Source: Apostichopus japonicus (Eukaryota > Echinodermata > Holothuroidea > Aspidochirotida > Stichopodidae). Taken from it: a DNA stretch of 64,000 bases. The notes below the pieces were generated by a model that worked only from the letters and a program-made list of their open reading frames with translations, had not been told where the DNA came from and made no database searches. Position 1 is the first letter of the stretch. Every line of letters starts with the position of its first letter. The stretch is from contig NC_092564.1 of assembly GCF_037975245.1 (NCBI RefSeq), positions 3,499,984 through 3,563,983 on the forward strand, in the 5' to 3' direction. Below, piece by piece: positions 998 to 56,000 of the stretch. Both the position numbers and the translations under genes were made by a program.

Positions 998-2619
998 CTG
1001 TAGTCGCTGATCACAGGGACACTTCATTGGCATGTACCTGGCATGCAGTGTTAGGAACAAAACGGATACACAGATGGTCGGAGGAACTGTCCGATCGTCC
1101 CATCCATAAATGGTCAACAAAATGGTCTGTGTACACTTCCGTATCAGCTCTAGGATTTCCCAAAACCAGAATTGACTTTTGTAGTTTTCACAAAGAAAAT
1201 TGAGCCAAGTCGGGATAACAGGCGGGACATCACTGTAATCAACAACAAGCGGTATGTCATCTTCAGAAGTTGAATTTTCTCCATTTAAATTGTTATCATC
1301 AGTTGGTCGACGATAAGTAGACCAACGCGAACAATGTTTCCACAAGAAGCAAAAGAGTGTTGCTGGAAACGCGATGACGTATAAAAGTGTAAAACAATAC
1401 GCTGCTATATTGTACGAATGAAACGCTGATGTTTTACAGTCTATCCCATAGTCAGATCGTAGAAGACGCCTAGTTTCATTCTCTGTGGCATTGTCATGCA
1501 ATGGAAATTCCTGGCATGCACTTGGATACATGTTGAAAATAACGGTGGATATACCCGGATACATGCAAAAGAAGAGTACAGTAACATACGTAAGAAGACG
1601 GTCCTTTAACTTCCTCAGTTTGGTAGACACCAATTGCGTTTCAGAAGGAAGATAGTTATACTTCAGGTAAGCTCGCTTAGCTTGATAGAAAAGAGATGCG
1701 GAGCAAATGATAAATATTGGCATAATTATACCAATAACGAATCGACCTTCAGGGTTTAATTCCTTATTTTCTAATAAGCACCTGGCGCCTGAAACGTCAC
1801 GTATAATGTTCAGTTCCATCAAAGATATCACAGTTCCCATGGGTACGAGTGGGTCGGCCCAGCTGACGTCATGTAATGATTCTAGTAACTTTCCAACGAT
1901 TTGATAGAATCCTAACAGGATTTTAGTCCTAGATATCAACACATTTATCACAGAACGCTTTTTGGTTGTGTTTTTTCGTTCCTTTTCAAATTGCCATGAC
2001 AACAGCAAGAGCAGAGAAACACAAAGGAACACAAATACACTGGTCATAGCAACTAACATGATTTTCTTCGGGCAAGGTACGCAGAGATTGAGCGCACCAT
2101 AGTAATTATTCTGACATTTAGCACATAACCAGCCTTTATACCCTTTTTCACATCTGGTCGTTACATTCCGTAAGCCGTCGTTGATGCAACTTCTCTTTCT
2201 CAGACAAGGAAAAGCTTTCGGTATTATCCCATCATAACTATTGCTTGTCCCCTTGAACGAATGATCCAGCTTCTTCATATTGATCACGAAATGTCTGTAG
2301 TTACTACTGCTAGCGTTGGCAAATTCCCAACTCCAGAAATAGCCAGGTAGAGGAAGTTTCACATCATTGGAGCAATTATATATGTTGTTGTCACAAGGTA
2401 AACATTTCCCAAATCGATGTGTTCTTGTATGGTTAACTTTACAAAAGCAAGCCCTGTAGCTGGCTGGGCGGCTTTTGTCGGTACCCTCTGGACATACTTC
2501 ACACTGATCACTAGATACTCCTTTACCATTGCTCACCCATGTACCACTGTTACATACTTTGCAAGCAATTTCACCGGGATTTCGAGCCGATACTCCAAAG
2601 TCATCCTGATAAAAGCCAC
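998..2619 (-). CDS. Gene A exon 13: GCC/EGF-like stalk and membrane domain
   Basis: 1622 nt, phase 1 in and phase 0 out. It opens with GGFYQDDFGVSARNP, which completes the GCC2/GCC3 repeat. More Cys pairs follow, including an EGF-like GYKGWLCAKCQNNYYG, then hydrophobic segments beginning at IMLVAMTSVFVFLCVSLLLL. A conserved KILLGFYQIVGKLLESL stretch and a C-terminal HARYMPMKCPCDQRLQ follow. At 998 the sequence is CAG/GTAAAG. Reading through would add VKP and a stop, but gene B shows that this is a donor. Near-identical to gene B exon 18. Confidence 0.92.
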
Positions 2620-3461
2620 CTATAATAAAAGAAATGTGAAGTTATCAGATGTTACGCACGCAAATGCTGAGTTTAATTTCAAAGAAAAGATCATAATTGT
2701 ACTTCACTGATACTTTTGTCCGTTAAGGTAATCAAATATGCCACAAAGTCAAAGAATAGTCACTATATATACCACAACTTCAACAAGCGTTCACTGCCAA
2801 CCCTCCAAATTATTTCTCCTAAGTGGGATATCGAACTGTCTATTTTAACTTAATCGCAATGTCTTGAAATCATTTGAACATTTAGAATCACCAGTGAAGA
2901 ATCTTTCATACCTGATAACAATTTTTAGCTGGCCGAAAGTTGGGGCCAATACTAGCTGATAGCTTGAAACATATAGAATGAAATTCCAACCACTGATCGC
3001 AATTGCCTAAAATGTTAAAATATATGTTTAAGATACCCCGTAATGCAAAAACATTAAAACACGTATGGGCTTTTTTTATCCATCTTTAATTAGCTTTCAT
3101 GTTACACATGTTCGCAGAACGTATTTCCTTTGGGTAAAGCTTTTTTTTCTATAACTTTGACTAACCCATTTTCAAATGTTTATACAATTTAGAGAATCTT
3201 CGCGGGCATTTGCAAATATTTTTCATATTCCGTTGATAACTATTAATGTGTTCTCATCGAGCAAAATATAGTTCAGAGAGAAATGTTGTTTTTGACATGT
3301 CAAAAAGAGCATAGTTTATGAAATTTGCATTGAATTTCTACTTGCCGTTGAATTGTACACGTTTATACTGTGGATTGTATGACACTTAGAGTAATAACAA
3401 TTAATATAAAACCAACATATATCTTCTAAGTTTGAAATAATATACGGATCTGCATGCATTA

Positions 3462-3529
<68 letters not shown>

Positions 3530-6500
3530 ATCACGTGTGGAACTTCCATTTCTTCCTGACTCTGTCATTCTACATGCATAAGCGTTCTCGGCATTCTGCA
3601 CCACCACCGAGTTACACATGCAACAATGTGCGACAATTGTAAAATGATGCGGCCCCATATCAAAAAAGAGCAGACAAAATTACAGGTTTTACCAGTTCAT
3701 TATCGAAGAGAAATGTTTGATGCCGTCGTCTATCTTTCCCTTGATAGAGGGCGTGCGTGTTTAAAGATAGGCAATCCTACTTATCATCATTTAATGTGAG
3801 CCCATGTGTGACTTTGTAACATCATACTTTATCTTATAAAAGTTCAAGCGTAATCAAATAGTGCTGTGAATATTTGATAGTTGGCCTATTTAAAGTGGAT
3901 GTAACCTTTTACCTGCTGGACATTTCTGGCATCCCTGTTTACCTACAACCTATTACTTGCTGGACAATTTTGGCATCCCTGTATACCTATAACCTATTAC
4001 CTATATAACTTATTACCTGCTGGACATTTCTGGCATCCCTGTATACCTTTAACCTATTACCTATAACCTATTACCTGCTGGACAATTCTGGCATCCCTGT
4101 TTACCTATAACCTATTACCTGCTGGACAATTCTGGCATCTCTGCATACCTATAACGTATTACCTATAACCTATTACCTGCTGGACATTTCTGGCATCCCT
4201 GTATACCTTTAACCTATTACCTATAACCTATTACTTGCTGGACATTTCTGGCATCCCTGTATACCTTTAGCCTATTACCTATAACCTATTACCTGCTGGG
4301 CAATTCTGGCATCCCTGTTTACCTATAACTTATTACCTGCTGGACAATTCTGGCATCCCTGTATACCTTTAACCTATTACCTATAACCTATTACCTGCTG
4401 GACATTTCTGGCATCCCTGTATACCTTTAACCTATTACCTATAACCTATTACTTGCTGGACATTTCTGGCATCTCTGCATACCTATAACGTATTACCTAT
4501 AACCTATTACCTGCTGGACAATTCTGGCATCCTTTTTTACCGTCGGCATAGAATCCTTTGTTGCATGTTGTACAACTACTGTTGCTGCAATTGAAACCTT
4601 CCTTTTTCAAAATATCGAGTATGTATGTCTCTTTTAAAGTATTATATGAACGGAGGTCCGGTGCTTCCAGTTTAATGGTTGGAAGAAGCTGACTGGAACA
4701 TATGCTAGATGGAGTAAACAAAGGAAATAACCATACTCTATAAATTAATATCAAATATTTACTTCATCGTCAGTGTCCAAGATTTGAGCATTGTTAGTTG
4801 GCAGGAATTCAAAGCTGTACACAATTGGCTGATATCCATCATTCCGTCATGCGCCCCACCTCATTAAAAAATAAAATAAAAAAGCCCTAACCTCTTGGTA
4901 CACTAGCATCCACTTAACTCGTATTCACAAATCACAACTAAACCCAGATTTCATTCAAAAGAGTTCTCAACGTATAGGCTGTGACCGAGAATGACCATAG
5001 TCAACGATATGCATCTCCAAAACTGTATGGTACCTATACTAATGATGCAATCAACGATAGTATAACCCTTCGTACTATGTTTGCCTTCCGTAACTCTTAT
5101 ACGAACTAATTACCATTTCAATCTATTACTTACACACTGACCAAGTGGTTGCTCGAATCCTCTCACATGTATTCTTTTAGAATCTGCGGGAAGCACAATC
5201 CAGGCTTCACCTGTCAACTGACATTCCAGTATATACAGGCACGCCCAAATCGACACAGGCGCATGACCACTGTCGAAAATCCTATCCACTATGGAGCGGT
5301 GCTGGGGGAGGAGGAGGGAGTGGGTAGACAATAGAGGGAAAACTGTAAACTTACATGTGTATTTTTTTGTTATCTATTAGAGGAAGAGTTTCCAAAAAGT
5401 CGCAGTTTAGAACACTGTGGAAATGAAATGAAGAAAGACGTTTAGTTATAATTATTAGTTATGCAACAATCAATAAAGATATATCACAACTGATACGCGA
5501 TAGAAGGGAAGGCAAGGTATAGGGGATGTTTTCCTTTTCGAATTGGTTATTTTATCGTCAGTAAATTTCATTTCATATCCCCCAGTCCGCCGATTGATAC
5601 AATACAGATTTTATATTGGTGAAAGGTTTGTATTCTTATCTGATTTAAAACCCTTTGCGAGCACATTCTTTGCTCTGGCAAACTTCTTTATAATTTTCAT
5701 CCAGTTTTTTCTCTTAATGAGTTTCTTTTCTATATATATTTGCCTTTGAGTAATGGTTTTACAATGTTTAATATGTATTGCTAGATGAATGAACTAACCA
5801 ATATGAGTGGGTTTAAAATAGCAAACATTATGTGCGTATCCTAATTGACAACATATAACGAATAAATTAAACGAAACAAATGTTACATATGGGCTAATGA
5901 AATAAACTTAAGAATTTAACAATAAGAAAGCTTGTATTTACATTTCTGCTTGCGATAAACCGTCAAATATTGTGTCACTTAAATTCTTTATCTTGTTGTC
6001 ATGGAGATATCTGAAATGAAAATCAATATACACATTTCATACATATAATTCAGATCAACCACATAAAGCTAAAGTAAGCTTGCAGGAGTTGTAGAAAGTT
6101 TTCAAAAGTATAACGTTTTTTTTCACAATGTCTATTTTCAGAGACTATTCAGAGACTAAGTGACAAGTAACAGCAATATATTTTGAATGAAATTATCACA
6201 TCCAACAAATGTATAGAATATGGGGCAAATTAGCTATGTGTCCGTAGGGAGTACTTTAAAGAGACATTCCAGACATATTGCAAATCGCGAAGGCAAATTA
6301 TCTTCCAAGCTGAGTTATATGAACACATATCAAGGCTGTAATTATTACTGTAGCTATCCTCCAACACAACGACTTACAATTCTCTAGCGGATTTTGGAAA
6401 CGGTGAACCATTCAGATGAGTAAGATTGTTGCCAAAAAGGAATCTGCGAAAGCACAATTCAGAAATAATATGAATACATTTGCCGGGCTGAACTGTCGAT

Positions 6501-16341: not shown

Positions 16342-16615
16342 TCAAGTTTGACTGAGTAACCAATCGCTTCTTCTGCGGAGTGGATCATAACAGATGACCT
16401 GTGGTATCGTCAATTTTGACTGAGTAACCCGTCGCTTCTTCTGTGGGCGAATCAAAATAAATGACATATGATATCATCAATTTTGACTGACTAATCCGTC
16501 GCTTCTTCTGCGAAGTAGATCATAATAGATGACCTGTGATATCATCAATTTTGACTGACTAATCCGTCGATTCTTCTGCGGAGTGAGTCATAATTGATGA
16601 CCTGTGATATCCTCA
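16342..16615. repeat. 68-bp tandem repeat, four copies
   Basis: The unit contains TTTTGACTGAGTAACC, TCGCTTCTTCTGCGGAG and GATGACCTGTGATATC. Copies begin near 16350, 16418, 16485 and 16553, a spacing of 67-68 bp, with about 10% divergence by eye. Confidence 0.92.
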
Positions 16616-20237: not shown

Positions 20238-23200
20238 CTAAGAACGAAAAATTGGTAAACAGGTATCGATGGTTTTATTTGTTTATTTATTTATTAATGA
20301 CTAAATTAATTCATAACTATGTATGTATAAAGCACCGTAATTTATTTGAAGTTGTTAATGTTGGGGGGGGGGGGAGGATGTTAGTAGATGGTTGGTCTGT
20401 TACACATGGAAAATATGTGCTGTGTGCATCTGTAAAATTGTATATAAATTTAAGTTTTACAATAGTTTGTGACTCTTAGTTTTGAACTAAGGTCATATGT
20501 AGAGTATTTTTCATTTGGAGACTTTTGATATTATTATATCAGTTTAACATATATATCGATCGTGACATTAATGTGACTCACACACCGTCATTAGTGTAAA
20601 GGGACTGGTACTGAGTCATTGAAAGTGGCATTCATTTTCTCAAGGTTAACATTGGTTTTCGTGTCCTGGTTCTTAAATTGATGACTCTCCTCACAATTTT
20701 GTTAAATATTTCAGGTTACTGAGAACAGACAAAGCAAGTTAAACCATTGCGATTGTTGCCAATTGTCAAAGATATGAAAATAAATATGAAAGTATCTACG
20801 TGTAGCTTTATAGCTATGAAACAAGGTAATCGGTTAACTTGCCTGCAATCAAGAATAAGACGGCTATATTTAACACGATGATGAAAATTGCCGTAGGGTG
20901 TTTTGTTCCCCGAATATCTGCCTTGGCTGAAGCTATCACAACATTGATGAAAATCGCAGCAAGTGAAAAGAGCTGAAGAAAGAGAGAGAAAGGAGAGAAA
21001 CTTTGAACAATGATGATGAAGATCAGTTTATGTTACATTAGTGTATAAGAATGTCTACCCAGCCAATTCACACTCTTTTCAATAAAATTTGGTCTCGTCA
21101 AGAAAATCGGGGTTTGCTCCCCTTCTTTCTTTCCCCTGTAATACAAACAATGAATCACCCTTACATTGAAACTGTGATACTATAATGGTTTTTAACGTAG
21201 TAAGTACGCCCTTGCAAATGGTATTCACTTTTCTGACAACAAGCTTGCTCAGCCTATTGCTGTATTAAGTGAGTTTGAGTTCTTTAGTCATATCGGTTTA
21301 GAATATAACCCTATAACAGTTGCTCAGGGTAATTGCAATCGCACCCATTTGTAGCGTTATTGTGCTAATGAGTCAGTATTTTTGATGTGAGTTTGCATGT
21401 ATTACATTTTTTACATCTTACTGATCATTCAAAGAAATATTGTTGATCCTTTCATAGATTCTGTAATTACATTAAGGCGAATCATCATCCTTCTCAGAAG
21501 CTCAACCTCGCAGCTCGTCATGTATAGGACAATCCCCGACACGTGCTATGACCGGCGTACACCCTTGCCGTATAAACTTTCAAAAAACAATAAAATCTGC
21601 CTTTTTTGTTACTCTTATTTCTCTCCTGGGAGTGTTATACTTTGTTACACCAAAATGCTTCTTAGATCACTTCCTTTCACAACTAATGAAACGAATGGAA
21701 CGAATGGAACGAATGATATGGAATGATATGGAATGAGATGGAATGAGATGGAATGAGATGGAATGAGATGAAATGGAATGAAATGGAATGGAATGAGATG
21801 GAATGAGATGGGATGAAATGGGATGAGATGGGATGAGATGGGATGAGATGGAATGAAATGGAATGAGATGGGATGAGATGGAATGAGATGGAATGAGATG
21901 GAGTGAAATGTAATGAGCTGGAATGAGGTGTATGAGATGGATGAGGTGGATGTGGTGAATGAGGTGGATGTGTTGGGTGAGGTGGATGAGATGGCATGAG
22001 ATGGAATGAGATGGAATGAGATGGAATGCGATGGAATGAGATGGGATGAGATGGAATGAGATGGGATGAAATGGAATGAGATGGGATGAGATGGAATGAA
22101 ATGGAATGAGATGGAGTGAAATGTAATGAGCTGGAATGAGGTGTATGAGATGGATGAGGTGGATGTGGTGAATGAGGTGGATGTGTTGGGTGAGGTGGAT
22201 GAGATGGCATGAGATGGAATGAGATGGAATGAGATGGAATGCGATGGAATGAGATGGGATGAGATGGAATGAGATGGGATGAGATGGAATGAAATGGAAT
22301 GAGGTGGGATGAGATGGGATGAAATGGGATGAGATGGGATGAGATGGAATGAGATGGGATGAGATGGAATGAAATGGAATGAAATGGAATGAGATGGACT
22401 GAGATGGAATGAAATGGAATGAGGTGGGATGAGATGGGATGAGATGGAATGAGATGGAATGAGATGGGATGAGATGGGATGAGATGGAATGAAATGGAAT
22501 GAGATGGGATGAGATGGGATGGGATGAAATGAAATGAGATGGGATGAGATGGGATGAGATGGGATGAGATGGGATGAGATGGAATGAGATGGAATGAGAT
22601 GAGATGAGATGGGATGAGATGGAATGAAATGGAATGAGATGGGATGAGATGGAATGAAATGGAATGAGATGGAATGAAATGGAATGAGCTGGAATGAGGT
22701 GTATGAGATGGATGGGGTGGATGAGGTGGATGTGGTGAATGAGGTGGATGTATTGGGTGAGGTGGATGAGATGGCATGAGATGGAATGAGATGGAATGAG
22801 ATGGGATAAAATTGGATAAAATGGTATGAGATGGAATGAGATGGGATAAAATTGGATAAAATGGTATGAGATGGAATGAGATGGAATGAGCTTGAATGAG
22901 GTGGAATGAGATGGAATGACATGGGATAAAATGGGATGGGATGAGATGGAATGAGATGGAATGAGGTTGATGAGGTGAATGAGGTGGATGTGTTGGGTGA
23001 GGTGGATGAGATGGCATGAGATGGAATGATATGGAATGAGATGGATTGAGATGGGATGAGGTGGATGTGATGGATGAGGTGAATTAGGTGGAGGAGATGG
23101 ATGAAATGAATGAAAGGTTATGACTTTACCTGTAGTCGCTGATCATAGGGACACTTCATTGGCATGTACCTAGCATGCAGGGTTAGGAACAAAACGGATA

Positions 23201-26200
23201 CACAGATGGTCAGAGGAACTGTCCGATCGTCCCATCCATAAATGGTCAACAAAATGGTCTGTGTACACTTCCGTATCAGCTCTAGGATTTCCCAAAACCA
23301 GAATTGACTTTTATAGTTTTCACAAAGAAAATTGAGCCAGGTCGGGATAACAGGTGGGACATCACTGTAATCAACAACAAGCGGCATGTCCTCTTCAGAA
23401 GTTGAATTTTCTCCTTTAAAATTGTTATCATCAGTTGGTCGAGTAGACCAACGCGAACAATGTTTCCACAAGAAGCAAAAGAGTGTTGCTGGAAATGCGA
23501 TGATATACAAAAGTGTAAAACAATACGCTGCTATATTGTACGAATGAAACGCTGATGTTTTACAGTCTATCCCATAGTCAGATCGTAGAAGACGCCTAGT
23601 TTCATTCTCTGTGGCTTTGTCATGCAATGGAAATTCCTGGCATGCACTTGGATACATGTTGAAAATAACGGTGGATATGCCCGGATACATGCAAAAGAAG
23701 AGTACAGTTACATACGTAAAAAGACGGTCCTTTAACTTCTTCAGTTTGGTAGATAGCAATTGCGTTTCAGAAGGAAGATATTTATACTTCAGGTAAGCTT
23801 GCTTAGCTTGATAGATAAGAGATGCGGAGCAAATGATAAAAATTGGCATAATTATACCAATAACGAATCGACGTTCAGGGCTAAATTCCAGATTTTCGAC
23901 TAAGCACGCTGCGCCTGAAACGTCACGTATAATGTTCAGTTCCATCAAAGATATCACAGCTCCCAAGGGTACGAGTGGGTCGGCCCAAGTGACGTCATGT
24001 AGTGATTCCAGCAACTTTCCAACGATTTGATAGAATCCTAACAGGATTTTAGTCCTAGATATCATAACATTTATCACAGAACGCTTTTTATTTGGATGTT
24101 TTCGCTCCCTATCAAATTGCCATGACAATAACAAAAGCAAAGACACAGCAAGACACACAAACACAAAGGTAGTAACTATTAACAGTACTTTCTTTGGGCA
24201 AGGTACGCAGAGATTGAGCGCACGGTAGAACCCATTCTGACATTTAGCGCATAACCAGCCTTGATACCCCTCATCGCAACTGGTATTTACATCCAGCAAG
24301 CCGTTGTTGATGCAGCTCTCTTTTCTCAGGCAAGGAAAGGCTTTCGGTATTACCCCACTATAATAATTGCTTGACTCCTTGAACGAATGATTCAGCGTTT
24401 TAATATTCTCAACGAAATTGCTGTAGTTACTACTGCTAGCGTTGGCAAAGTCCCAACTCCAGAAATAGCCAGGAAGAGGAAGTTTCACATCATGGGAGCA
24501 ATTATATATGTTGTTGTCACAAGGTAAACATTTCCCAAATCGATGTGTTCTTGTATGGTTAACTTTACAAAAGCAAGCCCTGTAGCTGGCTGGACGGTTT
24601 TGGTTGGTACCCTCTGGACATACTTCGCACTTATCAATAGATACTCCTGTACCAGCTTCCTTAACCCAGGTGCCATTGTTACAACGTTGACATGCTTGTT
24701 CACTGGGATATCGGGCTGTTACTCCAATGTCATCCTGAAAAAAGCCGCCTAAGAAGACAAAAGAAAAGGTTAACAATAAGAAAAATTAGGCACAGAAGAA
24801 AGCACATTGTAAGTAACTTGAGATAAACTTTACTCATTGATCTTTAGTTACTTTTACCCATACATCCAGCTTAACTTAATCTATACAATACATCCAGCTT
24901 TACTTTTTGAAATTGAATAGTATTACTCTTAATCGTTTTGAGACTGAGGAGTGTAGGTGAACTCACTTACAAGTGGGAGACTGAATTGGGAGATGACAAG
25001 GCCTTCGACACTCGTGGTAATATTATAGTTCATTTCTTTTTTGATTTACAACCTGCTCGATGTGATTAAGCAATATCTCTTGTGATTGTTTTACCTGGCT
25101 ATTTTGGATTCTGATGAAAGTACCATCAACTGAATAGAATGAAGAACCAACGATATTCGATTCAATGAGAAAGGTGAGATAAAAGTTAGACTTGGTGACT
25201 TTGAAGTTTAACGCCACATATGTAGTTTTGGAATGGTCACATACATTGATGGGGAGGGTTTGGGATCTTTGTAAGGACGGAGATTGCCGTCATTATTTCT
25301 GCAATGGTTGGTTAACAGAATTCAGCAATGGAACATCACATGTATAGAGGTTTCATTGGAGAATGGACATCTCGTGGGCACAATCTCCTTTTTGAGGGAG
25401 AGGGTTCCATACCTCTTGCGGTATATCTAACACTGACTATGATGAACTGGTACACATATGTTGTTGTTTCTTAAGTTAAATCGATGGAAACCTACATCCC
25501 ACTACTGTTCTGTAAACATATTGAACGAATAGTACTATGTGTACGTAGGCATTTGTTTACTCGAAGATTGAAACAAATAATAACATATTACCTGCAGGAC
25601 AATTGATGCATCCATGTTTACCATCTCCATAGGTTCCTTTCTTGCACGGGGTGCAAACATTTCTACTGCAAGTGAAACCTTCCTTCTTCAAAATTTCAAT
25701 TACATCCGTATTTTCTGCAGTTTGTAATATTACGGGTTGAATATCCCCCTTCTTGAGAGATTTCGTATTGCAAAGATCCATCTTAATTGGTGGAACATAT
25801 TGGTTCGAACATTGTCTGGATGTATTAATTAAAGATAAATAAACAAATAAATAAATAAAACAGAAACGGATTATGATTACGGTATTCTCTGACAGAATGA
25901 ATTTGAATTTGATTTGGGAAAAAACTGGAGAAAGACAGGAGAATGGCATTATTTAGGAAAAATCATTTTTGGAGTAAAAATAATGAAAGATGTAACTTAC
26001 ATATCCACATGATGTCCATAGCGAGGAAGCGCTTCCAATGGTTCACAATTGAGAAAACTATGGAATTAAAGTGCAAAATTAGATACTTTATCAAAACAAT
26101 AGTTGAATATTTGCTTAACATGTTACTTTAACCATTGTCAAGGTTTGGGTGAGGTGAATTTACGGAAACATTCTCATGTACTTCGTTTTTGTCCTGTTAG

Positions 26201-50062: not shown

Positions 50063-53000
50063 GTAAGATTCTGACTTTTTGGGCTTTTATGTATGATTGA
50101 TTGCATGCCCACATTGCTTCATGCTTGTTTCCCAAACGTTTGTTTTGTAGACGGTAAAGAGCAGCAGGGCGATGAATTGTTGATTTTTATGTAAGTCAGT
50201 TACTGCACTCATTCAAAAAAACATTGTAAAATGGCTATTTGATGAATGTTATCGACTACTTTGGCTTGCATATATTTTCTATGTATGTGGCCCTTTCTAT
50301 AAGGGGGGTTGGGAAGGAGGTGGGGGTGAGGCAATAGGAGATTCATTTCAATTTAGAGAAAACATTCCTTATTTAAGGCATCTTTTAAAAGTGGCTCAGT
50401 CTAACATACGTTCCTATATAAATAAATCCGAATGAATGGTTTCTATACTTAATAAACCACAATGCTTTGCTGGTATGGCTTGAGAAGTTGGCAACTCTTG
50501 ATTCCATGGAATTGTACACATAAGCAGGAGGTAAAGATCCACATTCTGTTCATCTCTCTTCCCAGGCTTGCAAAGACAGCTGATAAAGTTCTGGGTGCTG
50601 CAGATAGTGCCTACAAGACCTTAGATGAGGAGAGAGGTTATATTTTGTACATGAGATATGTCTTTTGCTGGAAGATAATACGACAGTCATCTGAGTACAA
50701 GAAGGACCCAGTATGTATTGAAAAATCTTAGTTCTAAACTTTTAAATAATAACCCATTTAGAGGTTTATTCTTCACATAGCTGCATATTTTGTTATTTGG
50801 AATTTATAAGTTTTAACTTTTGTTAAGTTTTAGCTTTTGTTCCTAAACTTTCCAGATAACATTGGTTTGTTAATTTTCTATGTTTGAATCTGTGGTAATA
50901 TTATTCATGTAATTTATTGGAGTGACTCAGTGAAGTAAAAGAATGAAGTTAACCCACAACCAGTGCTTCAGTTGCTATAACTGGGCAACCGATTCCAAAA
51001 TTCCATCAAATTATCTTCTTCATTTGTACTTGAGACATCCATTCTTGTTCTAAGTGTTAAACTTAGTGTCTGCAGAGGTGTGAGAAATGTTTATTGTATT
51101 AGAAAACAAATCTATTATTTAAAGAAGACTAAAATGCTGTACGTAGGACAGAAAAAAAAATGTTTGCTATATATATTAGCAGAAGTGTGTTAAAAGTTTG
51201 ATATTTTGAATTTGTCTTTTGCAGAAATATTACAACAATTTCTTTGGGAACAAGAACATTAAAAGGGCATTAGAACATGCTGATGAACTGTCAGGCTCAT
51301 TAGAAAGCAGGTAATGTTGAGGGCTCCATTAATAGTATGTATATTATATTTATGGAATATCAAACATGTTCATTGATAAGGGGAGTGTATTAGGCTCTAC
51401 GGACAAGGTAAGTAAGTAGAGGTTACTAGTGATTTGATGCTGTTGTCATGGCAGCAAACTATTAAACCAAAAGTGCTATGTTAATAGGAAGTCCTAATTG
51501 CTAATTAAAAATAATTATGGTGTTGCAGAGTATCTTCAATACAGAAGGGTATAGTAGTGTACAGATCAGCGCAGCACAGTACAGTCAGTATTTAGTATAA
51601 TATAGTACACTCCAGCCCACTACAGTACTCTCCAGCCCACTACAGTACACTCCAGCCCACTACAGTACACTCCAGCCCACTACAGTACACTCCGGCCCAC
51701 TATAACACTCCAACCCACTACAGTACACTCCAGCCCACTATAACACTCCATCCCACTACAGTACACTCCAGCCCACTACAGTACACTCCGGCCCACTATA
51801 ACACACTCCAACCCACTACAGTATACTCCAGCCCACTACAGTATAACACTCCAACCCACTATAACACTACAGTACACTGAAGCCCACTACAGTATACTCC
51901 AGTCCACTACAGTACACTCCAGCCCATTACAGGACACTCCAGCCCACTACAGAACACTATAGCATACTACAGTTTACTCCAGCCCACTACAGTATACTCC
52001 AGCCCATTACAGTACACTGAAGCCCACTACAGTATACTCCAGCACATTACAGTAAACTCCAGCCCACTACAGTACACTCCAGTCCACCGCAGTACACTAA
52101 AGCCCACTACAGCCTACTCCAGCCCAATGCAGTACACTCCAGCCCATTACAGGACACTCCAGCCCACTGCAGTACACTATAGCCCAAGACAGTATACTCC
52201 AGCCCACTACAGTTTACTCCAGCCTATTACAGTACACTACCTGTGCAACTCCCTTAGTGTAGTAGTGTACAAAACACTGCCGTACGCAAGTCAGATAAGT
52301 TGTTTGCCTTTATTAGATAACAACTGCTTTATGATGAAACATAATATTACCTGACTGTATGGGACTACACTTGCTGCAAACTCTAAAGTTAAGTGAAGAA
52401 TTGTCAAAGCAGTTCTTCTTGTAAGTGGTGTTAGAATTGATCTGGTTAAGCATGGTTTAACTCTTCTCTCAGGTATCAAGATAAAAAGGAGGAGGAAGAA
52501 CTAAAAGACAAGTTATCCAAAGGAGTAGAGCAAGAAGCAGTGAATGGTGATGTAGCTGGAGCTCAGCAGAATGGAGTTGAGGATTTACCAGAGGAGAAAA
52601 CTCTAGGTAACAATGGAAGCCATTTTCTTGATAGCACCATTATTTTACTATTAAACTTTAATTAAGATCATCTGCTGTAGAGATAGACTGGTTGATATTT
52701 TTTTCATTTTTATTCATGATCTCTCTATCTACTTGTTTGACTATTTGATTTGATTTTAAGGAACGGACGGTTGCTTGAGAGCGAAAGATCTCTATGATGC
52801 TATCAGAGGCAAGGATTTCTCTGTCTTAGTGATGGATGTCAGGAGTTCAAGTCAGTACTCTGAATCACAGATTAAAGATATCCCTTCCATTAACGTACCC
52901 ATGGAAATCATAAAAGCAGGGTAAGAGATGACTGCTCACCTCCTTAAAGATTGTTTGAAATTATTACTATGATAATTATTATGATTATTTTTATGATGAT

Positions 53001-56000
53001 GATGATTATTGTTATTATCATGATGATTATGATTGATCTAAAGTGTGTACTTACTGAAAGTAAAACATTTTGGATCCTAGAAGCACTCTATGGCATGATA
53101 GATTTTCAAATGATAGCTCCCAGACAAGATTTTTAAGTTACAGTAGGATGTCTCCCAAACAGATTAAACATTTTCTTAGCAGTTTGGGGAAGTTTCTCAA
53201 ATGTCTCTGTCATATTTAAGGATAAAGATGATGGTTGGGTTGATGTCCCCTTTAGTGTTTGGGTATCTAAACCGTAAATACTACTGATTTGACCTTGGCT
53301 GGTATGGCTGGCTGATACTACCATGTAATCTCTTAATTACAATACCAAGACAACCAGTGCCACCAAATAAGTCTGTTTAATCATTTCCAACTCGTGTGGT
53401 GGTGTCAACCATCTTGTTGTTTTCTTTGGTATTTTGAAAGTCAATAATGCCAAAACATTATGTATGCATCTCAGCATTGAACTTGCTTATGATGACCATA
53501 TATCTTCCCATGAAAATGTCTCTGTACATTTTTACGATGATTCTTTACGTTTACTTGGTCTGAAGCGACTGTCGTACGAAGCGTTAGATCTCCCAACTGC
53601 TTTTTCTAAATTGCAACTTTGAAGTTCTTCTAATTTAGACTTGTTTGATATTCCAGTTTAGAGTTTGCCAGCTTGCCAAGCAATGCATAGATGAATGTGA
53701 CATTTGTCATTGCATGATCACAAGTAGTAGATATCTTCTAAAAGCAAAACACTATTTGATATTTTCTGAAAGCCGGAAGAATCACAGCCATCAACGTTGC
53801 AGGCAATACGTTTGCTGTTAAGCATTTAAAGTGTTTAAAAGTAAGTTGGCCTGACGTTTCGATCCTAGCAGGATCTTCTTCAAGGGTTAAATGACAAGTA
53901 ACAGTAACAGAAGGTACAAAAACATGCACAGAATACAGACAGGTTAATGAACATGGTGAACCCAAAAAGATAGATGTAAGGGGACTAGTAGACAAGGGAT
54001 GGAGAGAAGAAAGCAACAGGGGAAGAGTAGAGGTAGGAGATAAACAGTGGAGGGACAAAGAGAGGATAAAGGGAAGGGTGTAGGGAATAAACTGGAGAAG
54101 GACAAAGACAGAAAGGTGTGGAGAAAAAAAAGGGTGGAAGAGAGCTGTGAGAAGAGGAGTGATGGGGGGGGGGGGGAGGAACAAGGGGAAGATGGAGGGG
54201 TGAGGAACAGATAGCATTTAAAGTGTAGCATTATGCACTGGAACTTGTGAAATAACTACCAGCTTCTTGTGGTGAAGACATAACAAGTCATTCTAATGCT
54301 CCAGACACCAATCATGTTCCATGTTTCTATGAAGCGATCAGAGCTTGTGTTCTGAATTTAGATGTTTGATTTCGGGCAACATTTTTGATCTTTCAGAAGG
54401 ATTTGTTCGGCAGTTTTCAGACTAGAGAGACTGTCAAGGGATTTTTTTAAAGTGAGGTGGTCAAGGTTTTTCTGAATTAATTCTTTTACAGAGCAACAGT
54501 GGTGGCCATTGAGAAAGGATTATCGGCAGATTATCGGAAGGAATGGAACCAGAGAGGTCATTTTGATTACATTGTTTTGATGGACTGGGATTCAACTGTG
54601 GGTGGTTTAAGACATGGTTCAACTCTTGCTAGCTTAAAGGATGCCCTCTATAAGGTATGTAGTTATTGAGGTGTGTTTCTGACCATTGAGCTTTTACTCA
54701 ATGGTTAGACAAACTGTGGAGCCATCAACCTTATTGCTGATGGCTCCTGAGGTCTTTAGCATAGGAAATGCTGTCACAACAGAGTATAAATGTATCTGGT
54801 TCACCATGCTAGACTGCTGGAATATTGTTCACATTGCTTAATAATGTTTACTATATGTGACAAAAATCTCTGTGAGCCTTCAGATTGCTGTGCAAAAGTC
54901 AAACTTTTATTTTTTCCACAACCGTTTTGAAAAGATTTCAATCATGTGGGTAATATCAAGTTGCAAATCAAATTATTGCTTAGCAACTTCCATCATTATA
55001 AAGTCATCCATTGTACAGTGTCAGTCTACAAGGACTGAAACATTGAACAATGGTTACTGCTACAATGTTGAGAACTTTTCAGTGAAATAGACGGACTTGT
55101 TACAATTATGACTCCATTCAGGTTAATTGAATGACCTGTTACAAGTCTGGCAACCACCAAATGAAATGGACTGACTTGTTACAATTATGACTCTGTTCAA
55201 GATAATTGAATAACCTGTTTCAAGTCTGGCAACTATCGAATGAAGTGGACTGACTTGTTACAATTATGACTCCATTCAAGATAATTGAATGACCTGTTAC
55301 AAGTCTGGCATTAACCATCAATGAAATGGACTGACTTGTTACAATTATGACTCTATTCAAGATAATTGAATGACCTGTTACAAGTCTGGCAACCATCAAA
55401 TTGAATGGACTGACTTGTTACAATTATGACTTCATTCAATATAATTGAATGACCTGTTACAAGTCTGGCAACTATCGAATTAAATGGACTGACTTGTTAT
55501 AATTATGACTCCATTCAAGATAAATGAATGACCTGTTACAAGTCTGGCAACCATCGAATGAAATAGACTGACTTGTTACAATTATGACTCTATTCAAGAT
55601 AATTGAATGACCTGTAACAAGTCTGGCAACCATCGAATGAAATGGACTGACCTGTTGTAAATCTGGCTCTTTTCAAGAAGGTGTTAATACCTTGCCGAAC
55701 CAGTCATTTTATTCATTTATTCAAAATATCTCTACAGTGGGACTCTTTTAAAACTTTGAAGCATGAGCCCCTCATCTTGGAAGGAGGCTACCTGGACTGG
55801 ATCCTGAGATACCCAATGTTTTCCACCAATTCTCGTGTCACCAAACCCCCAAGTTATGAGAGCTTGATGAAGCCCAAGAGCTCTTGTAAGTACATTTGTC
55901 ATGACTTAAAGTCATGATATGCTTTTTGTTGTTAGTAATTATTATTTTACGGATATTGTAATGTAAATCTATCATTGTTTTTATTGATTGACAGTCTTTG

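Follow-up and report, generated by a model that had tools for sequence, protein, structure and literature searches.

A minisatellite built from the end of an exon and its own splice donor in two tandem genes of Apostichopus japonicus

In 2007 Zhuo et al. reportedly traced alternatively spliced introns in humans to tandem arrays, a likeness to the present locus by title only. Genes in human segmental duplications contain internal tandem repeats whose units average about 30 bp, and excerpts of that study place some of them at exon-intron boundaries (PMC2812944). In potato, the available portion of a report on an RdRp gene describes the gain of an intron by a tandem duplication that crosses a boundary, and cites the Rogers AGGT model (PMC4974935). 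Arrays of dual-specific AGGT splice sites are described for human UBC and VCX3A in the part of that article used here (PMC10809524). A minisatellite in an intron of a fish gene is also on record, with no described link to a splice site in the accessible section of the paper (PMC3045353). As far as these extracts go, both boundary repeats (PMC2812944, PMC4974935) and AG/GT arrays (PMC10809524) are already in print; a slash marks the splice border here and below. Our literature searches were not aimed at this animal, and they returned no publication that we recognised as dealing with the gene or array described here.

We analysed a window of 64,000 nucleotides of A. japonicus, by which we mean the whole stretch at positions 3499984-3563983 of contig NC_092564.1 (C4:3499984-3563983), and we searched the genome of the same animal (671.6 Mb, 35 contigs). 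On the minus strand of the window, 13 predicted exons of a gene that we call A together form a single open reading frame of 903 codons. The splice junctions of this gene and of its relatives B and C were placed by eye and by reading frame; the start of the first listed exon of A may be off by one base, and further exons may lie upstream. The product has leucine-rich repeats, then a cysteine-rich part, and it ends in a long last exon in which apparent membrane stretches can be read from the sequence. In Pfam the upstream exons match leucine-rich repeats, and a TNFR-like match falls below its cut-off; exon 13 of A and of B gave no match reaching the curated cut-offs, only sub-threshold ones. A screen of the window for tRNAs and Rfam families found neither. 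Besides the array described below, the window contains minisatellites at 16342-16615, 51604-52238 and 55083-55656, with units of 68, 20 and 79 nt.

Table 1. Coordinates of the array, its source exon and the related exons (window positions unless prefixed C4)
Feature	Position	Strand	Remarks
Exon 12, gene A, 194 nt	4511..4704	-	Native donor CAG/GTAATAGG after 4511; open frame with adjoining exons; homologous exon in B and C
E0, exon-side edge copy, 30 nt coding, source of the E modules	4511..4540	-	
Array in intron 12, gene A: 11 E and 19 D modules, diverged D-like stretch at end	3905..4510	-	
Remainder of intron 12, gene A, array-free	2620..3904	-	97.8% identity to gene C (3912-2620 compared, 1219 bases aligned)
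Exon 13, gene A, acceptor TTATAG/GTGG	998..2619	-	
Homologous exon, paralogue B	25592..25815	-	Donor CAG/GTAATATG; array-free downstream
Exon 12, gene C	C4:3483872-3483679		Followed by array, 10 intronic copies

Beyond the native end of exon 12 at 4511, the exon end with its donor recurs in eleven intronic copies, head to tail, from 4473 to 3909, which bears out the minisatellite of exon end and donor recognised in the earlier note. Tandem Repeats Finder assigns the array region a score of 1048 and a higher-order period of 218 nt with a 93% match, and its units are spaced by 58, 44 or 60 nt. The basic unit of 44 nt spans the end of a coding exon and the start of an intron, since it consists of the 30 nt that close exon 12 (module E) and the 14 nt that open intron 12 (module D). 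With patterns composed after inspection of the sequence, the stretch 4540-3913 parses fully into E and D modules, with no base left. Eighteen of the D modules have 14 nt and one has 16 nt; D is itself made of two 7-mers, GTAATAG GTTATAG, which are recognisable in the intron start of B, GTAATATGTTATTA. Short units (D+E, 44 nt) account for three of the eleven copies and long units (D+D+E, 58 or 60 nt) for the other eight. E begins with GTAAAC in all three short units and with GTAT in all eight long ones, and every module parsed in gene A begins with GTA.

The sequence after every copy is GTAA, and in ten of the eleven it is the full GTAAT that the earlier note had given to all of them; together with the native site, these are the dozen or so donor-like 5' splice sites that it had counted. 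From -3 to +6, seven copies carry the native nonamer CAG/GTAATA, three have A at -1, and the last copy reads CAG/GTAAAA. The junction of E and D reads AGGT in eight copies. The exon 12/13 junction of gene A is in phase 1. A further candidate donor, ACG/GTAAAA, lies inside exon 12 at 4541, 30 nt before the native one; its use would remove 10 codons in frame.

The exon-derived part had been put at 22 nt in the earlier note and is actually 30 nt long. Directly before these 22 nt, TACAG stands in six of the eleven copies ("many" in that note), AACAG in three and TGCAG in two, with CAG in all. The GTAAACAG of the copies matches exon B and exon C in register at seven of eight bases each, a match unequalled among 217 positions of exon B and 187 of exon C. 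The commoner variant in A, GTATACAG, matches at six of eight bases in B, six in C and five in A. Genes A and C together have 21 intronic copies, and each of these has C at position 6 of E, as do exons B and C; exon A has A there. Because exons B and C read GTAAACA at this place, the supposed acceptor TACAG is exon sequence, and exon A has since changed. The array thus preserves an earlier form of the exon end and so records changes in a coding exon, and the acceptor-like motif arises incidentally from coding sequence.

A second array is located about 20 kb away, outside the window (about C4:3483135-3483678), within gene C (L009). Gene C is a tandem copy of gene A, with 94% identity over an 11.6-kb alignment; exons 1-6 of the two are identical, and their introns, excluding the array, are 91-100% identical. 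Ten intronic copies are obtained for C by parsing, whereas a scan for exon ends at six or fewer mismatches gives nine (the native one and eight others) and misses two. A and C have an identical 44-nt distal edge copy, and the interior of the array is rearranged: the variant TCAAG is absent from the eleven copies of A and present in six of the ten in C, while intron 12 outside the array is 97.8% identical between the two genes. Half of the copies in C (5/10) keep the native donor nonamer. GTAT occurs in C solely after long spacers, yet GTAA stands in three of the six long units, a looser rule than in A. The link of GTAT to long units therefore only half holds in C, which is a point against the explanation favoured below.

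In a search of the genome that skipped very common words, array DNA matched nowhere but in A and C. Paralogue B has a single exon end, and a search of the sequence after its donor at 25592 found no array, in agreement with the earlier note. We used an exon-12 search to estimate the size of the family and obtained 16 exon-12-like loci at E values up to 1. Two of them (A and C) carry the array and 14, including B, show a single exon end. GT stands at the expected donor place in 12 of these 14 and is absent from two; nine of the 14 match exon 12 only at E values of at least 0.1, which leaves the homology of some of them doubtful. The position of intron 12 is common to A, B and C, whose flanking exons join there in frame, and the number of intronic copies is 11, 10 and 0 in A, C and B.

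As the array is shared by A and C, it probably predates their duplication, unless gene conversion passed it from one to the other, which the identity of exons 1-6 makes possible. Relative to B, the array would be either a later gain or a feature lost in B, and loss stays in consideration because A and B yielded no alignment across the central part of the intron. An origin after the A/B duplication, as the earlier note had it, is an incomplete account, given the array in gene C and the possible loss in B.

A comparison of A with C (window 4511-5414 with C4:3483679-3484578) shows more divergence in exons 11 and 12 (11.7% and 7.7%) than in introns 11 and 12 (4.7% and 2.2%). Across exons 1-12, 23 codon differences change the amino acid and eight are silent, and in exons 7-12 dN is 0.055 and dS 0.089. 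Across the border from exon 13 into intron 13 (900-1420), A is nearer to B (23030-23550) than to C (C4:3480110-3480630): A against B gives 0.957-0.967 in the last exon windows and then 0.763, and A against C gives 0.887-0.92 and then 0.466. Gene A looks chimeric from these comparisons, the rest of it being nearer to C. A 10-nt minisatellite, GAATGAGATG, lies shortly after the exon-13 donor in A (723-981) and in B (21711-23113, about 145 copies); in C the search up to about 2 kb from the corresponding place revealed none.

The explanation that we favour, with a probability of about three in four, is a minisatellite that lies across an exon-intron border, is removed with the intron and is largely silent. 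The 44-bp segment would have been duplicated in tandem, probably in the common ancestor of A and C. The first duplication may have been anchored on GGTA, which is present at the donor and again 30 nt before it in the exon, and which forms the start of most modules. Slippage or unequal exchange would later have amplified and reshuffled the units. The true splice site would be the exon-side edge copy, the native donor being used by virtue of its nearness to the exon and the array being excised along with the rest of the intron; a distal donor, when occasionally used, would yield an early-stop transcript open to nonsense-mediated decay. We infer this order of steps, the choice of donor and the near-neutrality of the array. 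If so, the locus provides a natural test in which one 5' splice site is kept despite identical nonamers 116 to about 490 nt downstream, with built-in controls in the rearranged array of sister gene C and in the array-free B.

Sequence conservation among the copies bears on this reading. Over the 21 intronic copies of A and C, counted with an inserted base dropped in two copies of C, the donor window has nine departures in nine sites, or 1.0 per site, against 1.63 elsewhere. Seven of its nine sites are invariant, compared with 17 of 35 elsewhere and 24 of 44 overall, and GT is kept in every copy. When the 36 nine-site windows of these copies are compared by their departures, 13 of them, counting the donor window itself, do not exceed its value, and exceptional conservation of the donor was not clearly found. 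The pattern suggests a mild lean towards constraint, which we count against a silent array. We read it as a sign of youth rather than constraint, and the non-independence of the copies makes this a weak test.

The distal copies may instead compete with the native donor, being chosen at a rate that reduces output or yields a truncated leucine-rich ectodomain lacking the membrane part; we consider this unlikely. Local sequence forbids the use of no copy, given the seven identical nonamers in A and a U1 duplex calculation in which eight of the eleven copies equal or exceed the native site. In a donor table drawn from human frequencies, which, like the U1 5' end used for pairing, are approximate human values, ten array sites score at or above the native 2.9 (the seven identical nonamers, one CAG/GTAAAA and two TAG/GTATGC). 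The predicted products speak against such competition in A. We tested 30 distal GTA sites in an array stretch that has 60 GT, leaving out the GTT and GTC types, one of which is located at 4504, before the stop. All 30 lead to the same premature stop after PAGNRL, with exon junctions further downstream, and so does retention of intron 12, because a TAG at intron bases 12-14 closes the native frame. A distal donor would thus lengthen the transcript, as proposed in the earlier note, but in A each tested extension ends at that stop. Gene C may gain 7 or 22 codons, since two of its 40 alternative sites (C4:3483658 and C4:3483613, +21 and +66 nt) remain open in frame and the other 38 stop; both of these candidate distal donors have T at +3 and are weak. 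The native site is moreover the nearest to the exon, and the donor window lacks exceptional conservation.

A wider proposal would treat each AG/GT array, built from the gene's own donor, as an interchangeable bank of splice sites in two neighbouring receptor genes, acting through distal donors or silent recursive steps, so that the state of each array sets the amount of truncated or altered ectodomain. We regard it as decidedly improbable. In its recursive form alone, the native donor would join an array AG/GT, recreate the same donor and leave the final mRNA unchanged. AGGT is indeed repeated within the units: the A array has 42 in 602 nt and the C array 34 in 548 nt, compared with two in 1291 nt and three in 1299 nt in the rest of the respective introns. 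AGGT sites of like kind are used in human tandem repeats according to the accessible text of PMC10809524. The eight E/D sites with CAG/GT nevertheless have only 7-8 pyrimidines in the 20 nt upstream and another AG 1 nt away, which makes recursive splicing very doubtful. Equally doubtful is an enhancer role, in which the array would recruit U1 downstream and so aid a native donor that has no G at +5: numerous U1-pairing sites do lie close downstream, but B has the same GTAATA donor yet no array, and the native donor pairs on a par with other native sites (-8.1). The 22-nt microexons suggested in the earlier note, whose length is indeed no multiple of three, we reject almost outright, since the CAG before each of them is exon-derived, the 20 nt upstream contain 6-8 pyrimidines instead of the 10-20 seen for 23 native acceptors in genes A and B and thus offer no pyrimidine tract and, judged by context, no usable 3' splice site, the nearest other AG is 6 nt upstream (at least 13 nt at native acceptors), and all eleven predicted microexons lead to a premature stop 13 codons past the shared Pro-Ala.

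A largely silent border minisatellite resembles the described systems in different respects. Like the human repeats, as far as the consulted extract describes them, it lies at an exon-intron boundary and differs between recent paralogues; the repeats there can form novel introns, whereas the array here sits in an intron common to B and C (PMC2812944). In the potato gene, too, tandem duplication over an intron-exon boundary repeats splice signals, but the part of the report available describes one duplication, across intron 1 and exon 2, and a new intron, where we find the donor side, many copies and a longer intron (PMC4974935). The Rogers model calls for a new intron bounded by the duplicated AG and GT, and intron 12 instead occupies a position shared with B and C. 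The UBC and VCX3A arrays likewise carry AG/GT inside tandem units; the UBC repeats are described in the accessible text as coding and as splicing in both roles, in contrast to the intronic copies with poor acceptor context found here (PMC10809524). What distinguishes the present array is the clean record that it keeps and the controls built into it by genes B and C.
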